Assembly (NCBI GenBank): GCA_905478225.1
Contig: CAJQHR010000006.1
Coordinates: 124,001-188,000 of the forward strand
Direction: 5' to 3'
From: an uncultured Crocinitomix sp.
GTDB taxonomy: Bacteria > Bacteroidota > Bacteroidia > Flavobacteriales_D > Crocinitomicaceae
Length of the DNA stretch: 64,000 nt
Position 1 is the stretch's first letter; each line of letters opens with the position of its first letter. Under the pieces are notes generated by a model, which was given only the letters and a program-made list of their open reading frames with translations, had not been told where the DNA came from and made no database searches. This document shows, one piece after another, positions 17,152 to 31,029 of this stretch. The position numbers were made by a program, and so were the translations under genes.

Positions 17152-18428
17152 CTACAGTTTTTGTAAAAGTTTTCAATTTTTTGGTGCAATGCTATTAGAC
17201 CGTTATCCGATACTTCTATAGACCGCTCAAGCTCTTTAAAAGTATTAAAGATATCGATTATTACGTCTTTTGGGATATGCGACTTTTTGGCCACTTTTGT
17301 AAAGAATTTATCGTCCAGCTTATTGCTGTGAATATAATAGCGTTCAGCAATAAAATTAAGGAAGGTTTTCTCCTTTAATTTTATCAATTTATTGTGTTTC
17401 TTTTCTTGCAAATACAGTGACGAGAGCGTGTTTATATATTGCAATGACATGTTTTCTTTCGACTCACTTGCAGGAACCATTTTCTGCATCCGCTTTCCTT
17501 TGAATAAACCGTAAAGTACAGCCCCAATTAATAGAATTAAAAAAGCCCATAATAAAGGCGGATTATTCATAATGAATTGTAAAATACTCTCTCGTTTTTC
17601 GCCATCACCTCCACCTGAGTCATTGTCACCACTTGAATCTTCATAATGACGTCTAATATTATATTTATCCCATTGCACTCTTCCGGGTGGTACATGTTTC
17701 AATACATTTTCTGCATATTGAAATCCGTCTCGCTTCATCATGCTAATATTGGCAAATACATAGGGGTTGGAGTGCAGAAAAAGATAGCCAATCCCATACC
17801 TTATTTTAATAAAGTTGATTTGGTCATGGTTGTTAGATCCTAGACTTGAAAGTTTATCTCCATCATACAATGCGAAAGCATCCACGTCAAAATAATCCCA
17901 AGTTTTTTGCTGCACCTTATTGTTGTGAACAAAGTCAAACTTGTAACGCTTGCCTTGGAAATTTGAATGGTAGAACTTGAAATATTGTGAAGAGTCAATT
18001 ACTTCTTCTGCAAATACATCATCTGGGTCGAGACAAATTAAGTTTAGCAAGGCGTGCGGAAATTCTTCTGTTGAGATAAATCCCGTGTTTCCCGCCCGAA
18101 TGAAATCCATTAAATATTCAGTAGATTCTTCTGATAAATAATTCTCGCCTCCTACAAAAAAGTAGATATCATTGGCTTTGGAATTATCCTCTAAAATTTC
18201 TTCCAGATTATCATCCAATTCTAAAAAATTACCAAATAAACCAGTGGTGTCCAATAATTCCTTTAGCATATAAGTGCCATAAGGCCCTTTATCTGCCGGA
18301 TCATAGGTCATATTCCAGTTATCCGTGATGTAAGTTTCCTCTTTTTGTCTAAAGCTAAAATAATAGAGTAGCGCTACTAGTATAAGTACCACACCACCAA
18401 TGATTGCTATTTTGCCCCACTTGCCCAA
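17148..18428 (-). CDS. DUF4350 domain-containing membrane protein
   Basis: A 426-residue protein with an N-terminal transmembrane segment ('KIAIIGGVVLILVALLYYF'), the DUF4350 periplasmic domain ('YDPADKGPYGTYMLKELLD', 'YFFVGGENYLSEESTEYLMDFI'), and a second transmembrane segment around 290-310 ('PLLWAFLILLIGAVLYGLF'), ending in a basic cytoplasmic tail. The family regularly neighbours DUF4129, MoxR and DUF58. Its start abuts the stop of the DUF4129 gene, and its stop overlaps moxR by four bases. No enzymatic role is known. Confidence 0.88.
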   Translation of the reverse strand: MGKWGKIAIIGGVVLILVALLYYFSFRQKEETYITDNWNMTYDPADKGPYGTYMLKELLDTTGLFGNFLELDDNLEEILEDNSKANDIYFFVGGENYLSEESTEYLMDFIRAGNTGFISTEEFPHALLNLICLDPDDVFAEEVIDSSQYFKFYHSNFQGKRYKFDFVHNNKVQQKTWDYFDVDAFALYDGDKLSSLGSNNHDQINFIKIRYGIGYLFLHSNPYVFANISMMKRDGFQYAENVLKHVPPGRVQWDKYNIRRHYEDSSGDNDSGGGDGEKRESILQFIMNNPPLLWAFLILLIGAVLYGLFKGKRMQKMVPASESKENMSLQYINTLSSLYLQEKKHNKLIKLKEKTFLNFIAERYYIHSNKLDDKFFTKVAKKSHIPKDVIIDIFNTFKELERSIEVSDNGLIALHQKIENFYKNCR

Positions 18429-29202: not shown

Positions 29203-30114
29203 TCACTTGTCCAAAGGCAAACGATAAATGAAACGAGCTTCGAACGACCAACCATTTTCTATTAATGAGTTGGTCGTTGGTCGATCGTCCCCAATGTTCA
29301 CAGGCCCTAGTTTAAAATCAAGTTTATCGCTATCATCATAAAATCGGTATTTCCGCAATACGGATGCACCTGCTTTTAAATGAAACCAGATGTTTTTTCC
29401 CAAATTAAATTCGGTGAAAGCCCAAACGTTATTGTCTGCTTTGTCTAAGTGTTGATCTGATGAAAAAATACTAGGACTAATTTTATAAGATCCGTTCACA
29501 CCGTCAAATCGCAATCCGCCGCGGAACCAATCACTCGCTTGGCAGCTTAATTCTAAATTGATTGGAATGACTGTTTTTAAACGCCATTTATCATTGATGG
29601 CCCAATTAAACCCGAACAACGGAACGAACATAGGACCAAAAAGTTCGCCGTTATAATAAAGCCCATATTTCCAATCAAATTTTTCTGATAGACTTGTCGT
29701 TCCCAAGGCTAAACCGCCGAGTTGGAAATGCGATAAATTAACATCACTAAAATCTGTATTGAACCGTGGAATAGCCATAAAAAGCATCTTATGTTTCGCA
29801 TTCCATTTATGTTCAAGCCCCAATTGAAGCATGGTAGATGCAAATTCATAATCTAAGGCGCCACCAAATACATCATCCTGAATGGTGATTGTATTGTGCT
29901 GATATTCTAAGCCCAGAATAAACAGGTTATCATCATTTAAGACAATTGGCAACTTTGCATCTGCAACGTACATGTTGAAATTCCGCTTAAGGTTTAAATC
30001 CTCCACCGAATTCCCAGGGGAAGTTCTCCAATAGATATTCGCCAAGTCAATTGAATTTTGAGCAAATGCTGTTGATCCAATTGTGAAAAGAAAGAATATA
30101 ATTAAATGTCTCAT
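29203..30114 (-). CDS. DUF6268 outer-membrane beta-barrel protein
   Basis: A 303-residue protein with a signal peptide (MRHLIIFFLFTIGSTAFAQ) and alternating beta-strands typical of an outer-membrane barrel ('FILGLEYQHNTITIQD', 'KWRLKTVIPINLEL'), ending 'SFEARFIYRLPLDK'. It matches the DUF6268 family of Bacteroidota. The function is unknown. The start is chosen at the signal peptide rather than an ATG 18 bp upstream. It is convergent with the SlyD-like gene, with one base between the stops. Confidence 0.75.
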   Translation of the reverse strand: MRHLIIFFLFTIGSTAFAQNSIDLANIYWRTSPGNSVEDLNLKRNFNMYVADAKLPIVLNDDNLFILGLEYQHNTITIQDDVFGGALDYEFASTMLQLGLEHKWNAKHKMLFMAIPRFNTDFSDVNLSHFQLGGLALGTTSLSEKFDWKYGLYYNGELFGPMFVPLFGFNWAINDKWRLKTVIPINLELSCQASDWFRGGLRFDGVNGSYKISPSIFSSDQHLDKADNNVWAFTEFNLGKNIWFHLKAGASVLRKYRFYDDSDKLDFKLGPVNIGDDRPTTNSLIENGWSFEARFIYRLPLDK

Positions 30115-30132
30115 ACCATAAATGTAAGACAA

Positions 30133-30320
30133 TCATTGATATTTGAATTATTGAATATCGCCATCATCAGATACTTATTTCTGAATAGCGCAAAAGTATT
30201 TCGGCTTCCAATTCAATATTGAAATGTACAGCAGTCACGAATTATCCACCAGACGACCTTTTTATCCGTCGAATGGCTTCAATATGTTAAATAGTTATTA
30301 ATTAATATATCGAGGCAAGT
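30133..30320. other. Gene-free stretch upstream of the first sigma-54-like promoter
   Basis: No gene is seen. 30285-30303 ('tgttaaatagttattaatt') recurs in diverged form at 30613-30631, exactly 328 bp later, the same offset as the promoter and RNA blocks downstream. This could be a shared activator site; it lies about 48-66 bp before the predicted transcription start. Confidence 0.45.
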
Positions 30321-30323
30321 TTT

Positions 30324-30337
30324 GGCACGGTAATCGC
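30324..30337 (+). promoter_or_regulatory. Sigma-54 (RpoN)-type promoter, copy 1
   Basis: The sequence 'TTTTGGCACGGTAATCGCA' has GG at 30324-30325 and GC at 30336-30337 separated by 10 bp, the defining -24/-12 spacing of sigma-54 promoters (consensus TGGCAC-N5-TTGC). Transcription is expected to start about 12 bp after the GC, near 30349-30351, exactly where the conserved RNA block begins. Confidence 0.7.
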
Positions 30338-30350
30338 AATTGCAATAATT

Positions 30351-30415
30351 GAATTAGACTAAATGATTCATAGGTTTTGGGTTAAGGCCGCTCTTTCTGA
30401 AAGGGCGGTCTTATT
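30351..30415 (+). ncRNA. Candidate small RNA, copy 1 (sigma-54 driven, about 65 nt)
   Basis: A 65-nt block starting 'GAATTAGACTAAATG' and ending in a Rho-independent terminator: 'AAGGCCGCTCTTTC' pairs with 'GAAAGGGCGGTCTT' (G-U wobbles allowed), then TATT. The start coincides with the predicted sigma-54 transcription start. The whole block recurs 328 bp downstream with a single base change in the hairpin loop (G to A), which leaves the stem intact. A small peptide from the ATG at 30363 is an alternative reading but would run through the terminator. No RNA family is recognised. Confidence 0.6.
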
Positions 30416-30640
30416 AGTTCTTCGAAATTTTAATGTAGAAGAATTTATACCCCGAAGCTTTAGCAAAGGGGTATTGCTCAAAGTCTCGACGAAGGAGCAT
30501 TTCTTATACGCAAAATTTCCTAAATTTCTTTAGCAGTCTCAACAACTTCCTGGATGTAGTCCTGCGCTAACGTGATCTATCTTCAATCGCTTCGTTTCGC
30601 AGCCCTCCAATTTGTTAAATAATTCCTAATTTTTTACCAA
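30416..30640. other. Gene-free spacer between the two candidate small RNAs
   Basis: No gene is seen. One hairpin is visible at about 30449-30477, where 'ATACCCC' pairs with 'GGGGTAT' around 14 bases. The rest is unique sequence with no terminator, and it is not shared with the two flanking duplicate blocks. Confidence 0.4.
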
Positions 30641-30651
30641 ACCAATGTTTT

Positions 30652-30665
30652 GGCACGATTGTCGT
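30652..30665 (+). promoter_or_regulatory. Sigma-54-type promoter, copy 2
   Basis: 'TTTTGGCACGATTGTCGTA' repeats copy 1 with GG at 30652-30653 and, after 10 bp, GT (not GC) at 30664-30665. The TTTTGGCACG half is identical to copy 1. The -12 deviation suggests a weaker promoter. The conserved block again begins 14 bp after this element. Confidence 0.6.
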
Positions 30666-30678
30666 ATTACTGTTAACC

Positions 30679-30748
30679 GAATTAGACTAAATGATTCATA
30701 GGTTTTGGGTTAAGGCCGCTCTTTCTAAAAGGGCGGTCTTATTTTTTT
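30679..30748 (+). ncRNA. Candidate small RNA, copy 2
   Basis: Positions 30679-30743 are the second copy of the 65-nt block, differing from copy 1 at one loop base. The terminator hairpin is here followed by a longer T-run (30742-30748), making it a stronger terminator than copy 1. Its 3' end overlaps the last codons of gatC on the opposite strand by about 10 bp, so antisense contact with gatC mRNA is possible but not needed to explain the arrangement. Confidence 0.6.
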
Positions 30749-31029
30749 AAAACCTTAGCAATTTTGAAATAATCAGAATCGTGATTTGGCGCATTTTTCA
30801 ATGCTTCTTTCTGAGTAATACTAGGTTCAAAAACATCTTCACGCAAAACGTTAATAGAATCCGTCATAAAAATAAGTGGCTCAACACCTTCCGTATCTAC
30901 TGCATTTAACTGATCTACAAATCCAATGATTTTAGAAAGATCTTTTTTAATGTTTTCTTTCTCTTCACCATTAAATTCTAATCGTGCTAAGTGAGCAATA
31001 TGATCAACTGTTTCGTCTGTAATTTCCAT
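30739..31029 (-). CDS. gatC: Asp/Glu-tRNA amidotransferase subunit C
   Basis: The small subunit of GatCAB, which converts Glu-tRNA(Gln) or Asp-tRNA(Asn) to the amidated form in the cytoplasm. The 96-residue product has the family pattern 'DHIAHLARLEFNGEEKENIKKDL' and 'QLNAVDTEGVEPL' with the 'LREDV' motif near residue 62. The gatA and gatB genes are not in the window. It lies 9 bp after the acyltransferase gene and is probably co-transcribed with it. Confidence 0.93.
   Translation of the reverse strand: MEITDETVDHIAHLARLEFNGEEKENIKKDLSKIIGFVDQLNAVDTEGVEPLIFMTDSINVLREDVFEPSITQKEALKNAPNHDSDYFKIAKVLKK

Follow-up and report, generated by a model that had tools for sequence, protein, structure and literature searches.

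The Qrr small RNAs (sRNAs) of Vibrio are encoded by several near-identical sigma-54-dependent genes, and in the enterobacterial GlmY/GlmZ system one of the two RNAs has a sigma-54 promoter. GlmY and GlmZ are described, in the accessible part of the source, as sibling sRNAs (PMC7073468). Sibling sRNAs that share a seed and act at start codons are already known in Bacteroidota: the available portion of PMC11697453 presents GibS and FopS of Bacteroides thetaiotaomicron as differently controlled sRNA classes with one seed, reports that both pair at the start-codon region and repress, and states that FopS has been deposited in Rfam. For Flavobacterium psychrophilum, the available portion of PMC9723704 describes sigma-54-type promoters of chaperone, envelope stress and gliding genes and of one putative regulatory RNA; Rfp36 is the putative regulatory RNA listed there with a sigma-54-type (SM4) promoter. 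Given these precedents, the statement of a first-pass annotation of the DNA studied here, that nothing comparable was known from Bacteroidota, was too strong. In the literature searched, we found no report of the small-RNA family described below or of a sigma-54 class that shares its motif with a housekeeping class of another architecture, and a search by the letters of the motif returned, among the matches listed, none that was related.

The window (the whole stretch of DNA analysed, 64,000 nt) contains two tandem blocks that belong to an RNA family denoted here class A; a second family that carries the same motif is denoted class B. The features of the locus are the following (CM, covariance model).

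29203-30132, minus strand: gene for a DUF6268 protein, divergent neighbour, outer-membrane-protein-like by eye; often adjoins class A
30286-30301, plus strand: upstream box of copy 1 (GTTAAATAGTTATTAA), 65 nt 5' of the RNA; putative activator or UP-type site
30323-30338, plus strand: sigma-54-type -24/-12 promoter of copy 1 (TGGCACGGTAATCGCA); TGGCA and spacing conserved in the family
30351-30415, plus strand: class A small RNA, copy 1, 65 nt; CM match of 82.4 bits
30351-30369, plus strand: predicted 5' hairpin of copy 1
30367-30385, plus strand: exposed putative seed motif TTCATAGGTTTTGGGTTAA of copy 1, common to class B RNAs
about 30383-30413, plus strand: predicted terminator hairpin of copy 1
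30614-30629, plus strand: upstream box of copy 2 (GTTAAATAATTCCTAA)
30651-30666, plus strand: sigma-54-type promoter of copy 2 (TGGCACGATTGTCGTA)
30679-30748, plus strand: class A small RNA, copy 2, including the T-run (65-nt block, 30679-30743); CM match of 82.6 bits
30695-30713, plus strand: putative seed motif TTCATAGGTTTTGGGTTAA of copy 2
30739-31029, minus strand: gatC, convergent neighbour; often adjoins class A

The two 65-nt blocks are 328 bp apart and form part of a duplicated stretch of 97 nt with 87% identity; TTTTGGCACG is found at the same distance 5' of both, with the T of TGGCACG at 30323 and 30651. The first-pass annotation had described the tandem blocks with their box, promoter and equal spacing, all of which we recovered, the blocks being at 30351-30415 and 30679-30743, and it had correctly placed the single base difference (G/A) in a hairpin loop, namely the terminator loop of the predicted fold. 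As a correction to the Rho-independent terminators that it proposed, the T-run is good after copy 2 (TTATTTTTTT) and weak after copy 1 (TTATTAGTTCTT). None of 200 shuffled sequences folds as well as either block (z of -3.9 and -4.95). The pattern TTGGCACGN6G occurs twice in the window, both times at these blocks; since at least two occurrences are also seen in 6 of 100 shuffles, the promoter match in the window alone is not decisive, and it is the conservation of the promoter that is. Copy 2 runs, with its last bases, into the stop codon of gatC, which is convergent. The window's genome (G000; 3.52 Mb in 75 contigs) encodes a third copy (G000:C58:8073-8137) which, when aligned, appears as a mosaic of a copy-2-type promoter and a copy-1-type downstream flank (L005:3042-3160), and this suggests conversion between copies.

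Judging by conservation among relatives, which the first-pass annotation had proposed to search, the blocks are members of a conserved small-RNA family. Searching 99 relatives (the window's genome included) at the DNA level yielded strong copies within the genus and weaker ones beyond it. With a covariance model derived from 14 copies, matches at E <= 0.01 were obtained in 19 of 240 Crocinitomicaceae genomes; the weak matches in three of these (G112, G019 and G145; E of 0.005-0.008) were dropped because neither TGGCAC nor TTTTGGGT was found within 500 nt. This leaves 35 copies in 16 of the 240 genomes, with one to five per genome and three in that of the window, a count from which two further weak matches (G048:C7 and G162:C341) were excluded and which may miss copies, given that the model search scored only the best first-look candidates of each genome. 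What had been taken for a functional pair is thus a multi-copy family, and forms one half of a two-class system. The carriers are eight genomes of the genus (all but G008, with a completeness of 67%) together with eight from five other genera, and include the cultured Crocinitomix algicola 0182 (L040) and C. catalasitica ATCC 23190 (L045) as well as Crocinitomix MAGs. Among 399 sampled genomes of the order, 15 have class A matches (E <= 0.001), all within the members of Crocinitomicaceae in the sample. Rfam scans of the window (gathering thresholds) and of six class A copy loci (E <= 10) returned no family match, the Flavo-1 RNA singled out in the first-pass annotation, Qrr, GlmY/GlmZ and GibS/FopS included; weak sub-threshold Rfam matches at class A and class B loci were set aside as chance.

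Class A RNAs are predicted to span about 65-70 nt. In the predicted fold, a 5' hairpin (GAATTAGACTA...GATTC) is followed by the 19-nt motif UUCAUrGrUUUUGGGUUAA, which is exposed, and then by the hairpin of the terminator; several copies have another, inserted hairpin in place of the loop of the first one. Over the 28 distinct rows of the 35-copy alignment, 15 of 20 pairs vary on both sides and 89.2% of the cells pair, counts that favour the structure because the alignment was fitted to it; none of 500 shuffles matches any of the five measures taken. Fourteen of the 15 covarying pairs sit in the terminator. The first helix has six pairs, of which four are invariant and one more departs by unpaired cells only. 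The family alignment and the covariation support the proposal that constraint acts on the RNA and the promoter rather than on the spacer or an encoded peptide.

TGGCA is invariant in all 34 class A copies for which the promoter was counted (a further copy, L166, was omitted as its 5' part is unaligned), TGGCAC is present in 32, and in 33 the promoter lies 27-28 nt from the RNA. The GG-N10-GC/GT promoter of the first-pass annotation is supported as being of the sigma-54 type, with the qualification that GC at -12 belongs to copy 1 only, copy 2 having GT, and that over the 34 promoters the -12 dinucleotide is GC in only 16, TC in nine, GT in six, CC in two and AC in one. The upstream box GTTAAATATTTCTTAA, searched with up to 4 mismatches, lies 64-65 nt 5' of the RNA in 25 of the 34 copies and at 75 nt in one; the same search did not find it in eight, six of which are in lepA-family loci. 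At one locus (L117), a long palindrome (AATTAGCAGGTACAGG...CCTGTGCCTGCTAATT) occupies the usual place of the box, within 60 nt 5' of the promoter. The window's genome contains one match to rpoN, on whose presence the first-pass annotation had made its reading depend, and nine to PF00158, two of them strong. One sigma-54 activator is a 389-aa receiver-AAA+ protein with no HTH match (L135:188-1357), adjoining a gene that we take to be nadC; a second is a 414-aa AAA+ protein with a Fis-type HTH, flanked by what are presumably miaB and lptE, and could be the protein that binds the upstream box. A search for a sigma-54 promoter in front of groESL, where F. psychrophilum has one, gave no clear match.

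Genes that recur next to class A encode an FKBP protein, a DUF6268 protein, GatC and an acyltransferase. Across 28 distinct loci, the DUF6268 family adjoins class A in 12 (the Pfam names of neighbours derive from one tested member per family) and gatC is beside or near it in 11. Tandem class A pairs are found in four genomes of the genus, namely G000, G004 (two loci), G005 and G006 (two loci), and in G001 a 768-aa ORF is flanked by two class A copies. A second type of locus, without the box, comprises six loci with a lepA-family gene (L113, L116, L121, L151, L163 and L165), and in some of these metF or a gene for a helicase is also present. The flanks of the two tandem loci of G004 (L108 and L109) are swapped relative to G000 and G006, which points either to recombination at the arrays or to a misjoin in the MAG.

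Exact complements of the motif (the 11-mer AACCCAAAAYC; 60 regions in five genomes) were considered as targets and rejected: the window's genome has seven beyond its three sRNA copies and also seven matches to the reversed pattern, that is, no enrichment, and no exact start-codon site common to the genomes was found among these regions. It was through this exact-complement search that class B came to light. As predicted from the sequence, class B consists of a closing stem, the motif UUCAUrrGUUUUGGGUUAA near the apex or in the loop, and a T-run; given that the elements were found by a 14-mer or a 24-mer, conservation within those letters is partly a matter of selection. Tracing through the motif complements in five genomes revealed a three-element array conserved in all five, and a wider pattern led to dispersed elements. 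Stems were detected in 34 of 37 elements (the automatic finder missed the other three, and some of the stems it reported are doubtful), with T4 after the stem in 22 of the 34 and A4 before it in six. Within 35 nt of these 34 elements, TAnnTTTG, given as the housekeeping -7 box in the available text of PMC9723704, occurs eight times upstream versus once on the other side; it lies 12-13 nt 5' of the stem in all seven genus elements outside arrays that were examined and in an eighth (L267). Minimum-energy folds leave the core GTTTTGGGT entirely or largely unpaired in many class B elements and show it partly paired in others. In the window's genome, three tandem class B stem-loops (L172:216-657; G000:C50, ~17715-18156), with a -7 box 5' of the first, are convergent, by eye, with a GH25 lysozyme-like gene, and this array was aligned in five genomes of the genus; arrays of two or three elements are also present in G002, G005 and G007. 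No Rfam family exceeded the threshold at three class B arrays.

With at most one mismatch, the class B 24-mer occurs in 14 of the 240 genomes, every one of them a class A carrier (Fisher p of 7e-21, not corrected for phylogeny). The remaining two carriers, G030 and G045, have only 3-mismatch matches, of which that of G030 folds like class B; six genomes overall have matches with only 2-3 mismatches, and the reversed control matched eight genomes. A region of G048 (L273:1958-2048) might represent a third architecture, in which a short hairpin is combined with the shared motif and a terminator; by eye, no sigma-54-type promoter was seen there. The notion that class B elements are sponges that pair with class A was rejected, since the T-run and the -7 box sit on the motif-bearing strand.

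The complement of the class B motif, AACCCAAAACTTATGAA, has an ATG inside it and resembles start regions. At up to two mismatches, and with class A and class B copies subtracted (for G012, G016, G030, G033, G048 and G162, from the covariance-model and 24-mer results), 126 complements were found in 15 carriers versus 26 in 15 class A-negative relatives; the corresponding numbers are 77 versus 64 for the reversed control and 135 versus 90 for a decoy in which the same 12 leader letters are reversed before ATGAA. The odds ratio against the decoy is 3.2 (p of 1.6e-6), or 3.1 without G006. When each genus is represented by one genome, it is 2.2 (p of 0.046), or 2.7 (p of 0.006) with G004 standing for the genus; against the reversed control, the same comparisons give p of 0.25 and 0.066. 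The excess comes mainly from G001, G004, G006, G012, G016 and G027, with little or none in G002, G005, G007, G030, G033 and G162; the window's genome shows no excess of near-complements, with four sites compared to six for the reversed control and two for the decoy.

The sites fall on the start codons of ORFs of at least 80 aa in 26 of 43 carrier sites, 5 of 17 class A-negative sites and 1 of 30 decoys, where the carrier and class A-negative sets are non-random and differ with a p of only 0.045, so that part of the effect is ordinary start context. The 43 distinct carrier sites come from G004 (20), G006 (11), G000 (4), G003 (3), G027 (3) and G005 (2), and the class A-negative set consists of 17 of the 26 sites, those among the matches listed; the 31 sites contributed by the close relatives G004 and G006 include at least six orthologous pairs, which are non-independent. 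For the 14-mer ACCCAAAAYYYAYG, 7 of the 11 non-RNA carrier sites that were read begin an ORF of at least 145 aa (L227, L263, L264 and L269-L272). In G016, each of two paralogous sensor-kinase genes begins with a site, and a gene for a LytTR regulator behind one of them begins with a 1-mismatch site; in the window's genome, one site begins a gene for a PqiA-domain protein and another a 58-aa ORF. No target common to different genera was found. In G004, one candidate site (L317) coincides with the start codon of a gene for an IS1-type transposase. Duplexes computed for seven chosen sites, using the class A sequence of the window and one class B sequence from the genus and no shuffled control, range from -21.6 to -30.2 kcal/mol for class B and from -18.7 to -24.3 kcal/mol for class A; outside the genus, class A has, by eye, one A-C mismatch to the usual site. 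The sharing of the motif with class B and the complements at starts support the first-pass suggestion that the exposed GGTTTTGGGTT is the likely pairing segment.

On balance, we consider it somewhat more likely than not that class A and class B are, respectively, sigma-54-inducible and housekeeping sibling sRNAs that share one anti-start-codon seed and repress mRNAs, a reading in which our confidence is reduced because the window's genome lacks a target excess. Also counting against it are GC at -12, exact in only 16 of the 34 promoters, the eight copies in which the upstream box was not found, and the target excess itself, which is weak with one genome per genus. Class A would be transcribed by the sigma-54 RNA polymerase, switched on by an enhancer-binding protein, and class B, with the motif in its apical part, would be made from ordinary housekeeping promoters. 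Both would base-pair with selected mRNAs at the site where translation starts (AACCCAAAACUUAUGAA, with the start codon within the duplex), and such pairing would block initiation, so that class B might provide a basal level of repression to which class A would add upon sigma-54 activation. The activating signal is probably envelope or protein stress, a guess that we make for class A because of the roles of sigma-54-type promoters described in the accessible part of the F. psychrophilum study (PMC9723704).

The same motif, exposed on two different scaffolds that co-occur, one of them with a sigma-54-type promoter, is also what would be expected if UUUUGGGUU were bound by an RNA-binding protein or an RNase adaptor, and class A, made by sigma-54, titrated this protein away from class B in the way that GlmY acts for GlmZ. 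We regard this as unlikely but as the main rival, all the more so given the lack of target excess in the window's genome; the motif is also conserved more than the scaffolds, although class B was found via the motif. A protein site, however, offers no explanation for the over-representation of the motif complement, and its position on ORF start codons, in several carriers. An action of class A solely in cis, as an antisense RNA or attenuator for the convergent gatC or the neighbouring DUF6268 gene, would fit the end of copy 2 on the gatC stop codon and the recurrence of both neighbours, but appears improbable in view of the copies that adjoin unrelated genes (glycosyltransferase, lepA, metF, helicase) and have this RNA motif and promoter too, and of the start of the DUF6268 gene, which by eye shows no motif complement.

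That the block encodes a small peptide (MIHRFWVKAAL...) is highly improbable. The frame is open through the motif, some motif changes fall, by eye, at third positions, and 26 of the 34 copies have an in-frame ATG, GTG or TTG within the RNA; however, the ATG at 30363, from which a conserved peptide would have counted against the first-pass reading, has a counterpart in only 15 of 34 copies, start and stop are both inside the transcript in two of 34, in 30 of 34 the frame runs past the end of the T-run (as called by the script) without a stop, and the C-terminal parts differ, changing by paired bases. It is similarly improbable, if somewhat less so than the peptide, that the copies represent a small repeat that moves or recombines and has no regulatory role: up to five copies per genome, the mosaic third copy and the apparent exchange of flanks between two G004 loci are what such a repeat might produce, as opposed to the promoter spacing, the covarying helices and the recurrence of neighbours across several genera.

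In a broader and more tentative form, for which we see a possible but less than even case, the sibling-sRNA reading would describe a two-input network in Bacteroidota, in which sigma-54 and housekeeping sRNA families of different architecture employ a single 19-nt seed directed at start codons, and the set of mRNAs that opt in, through a AACCCAAAACUUAUGAA box over the start codon, is a changing one. Given that a related flavobacterium is reported, in the available text of PMC9723704, to lack Shine-Dalgarno sequences, this seed would be the start-codon counterpart of anti-Shine-Dalgarno seeds. If this is true, sigma-54 in these flavobacteria gains an sRNA arm for which promoter, seed and candidate targets are defined; the constitutive sibling family alongside makes redundancy versus stress control of one seed directly testable; and the opt-in start-codon box amounts to a simple rule of target choice.

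Among the systems outlined at the outset, Qrr resembles class A in its near-identical sigma-54-type sRNA genes and belongs to a different phylum from the class A carriers; the likeness to Qrr or GlmY/GlmZ that the first-pass annotation had drawn extends to no tested feature beyond promoter and copy number, and, unlike GlmY/GlmZ, class A and class B both carry the putative pairing motif. Rfp36, compared by its description in the accessible part of the source only, is like class A in having a flavobacterial sigma-54-type promoter; the class A matches among the 399 sampled genomes of the order are all in Crocinitomicaceae. There is also a resemblance in overall design to GibS and FopS, insofar as these are covered by the available portion of PMC11697453: GibS, unlike class A, is not described there as sigma-54-dependent, and the motif is found in the apical loop in class B versus the 5' single strand in FopS. 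In both cases, by sequence only here and with the letters of the two seeds not compared, a multi-copy family with an ordinary promoter stands next to a separately controlled sRNA, and the two share one seed.
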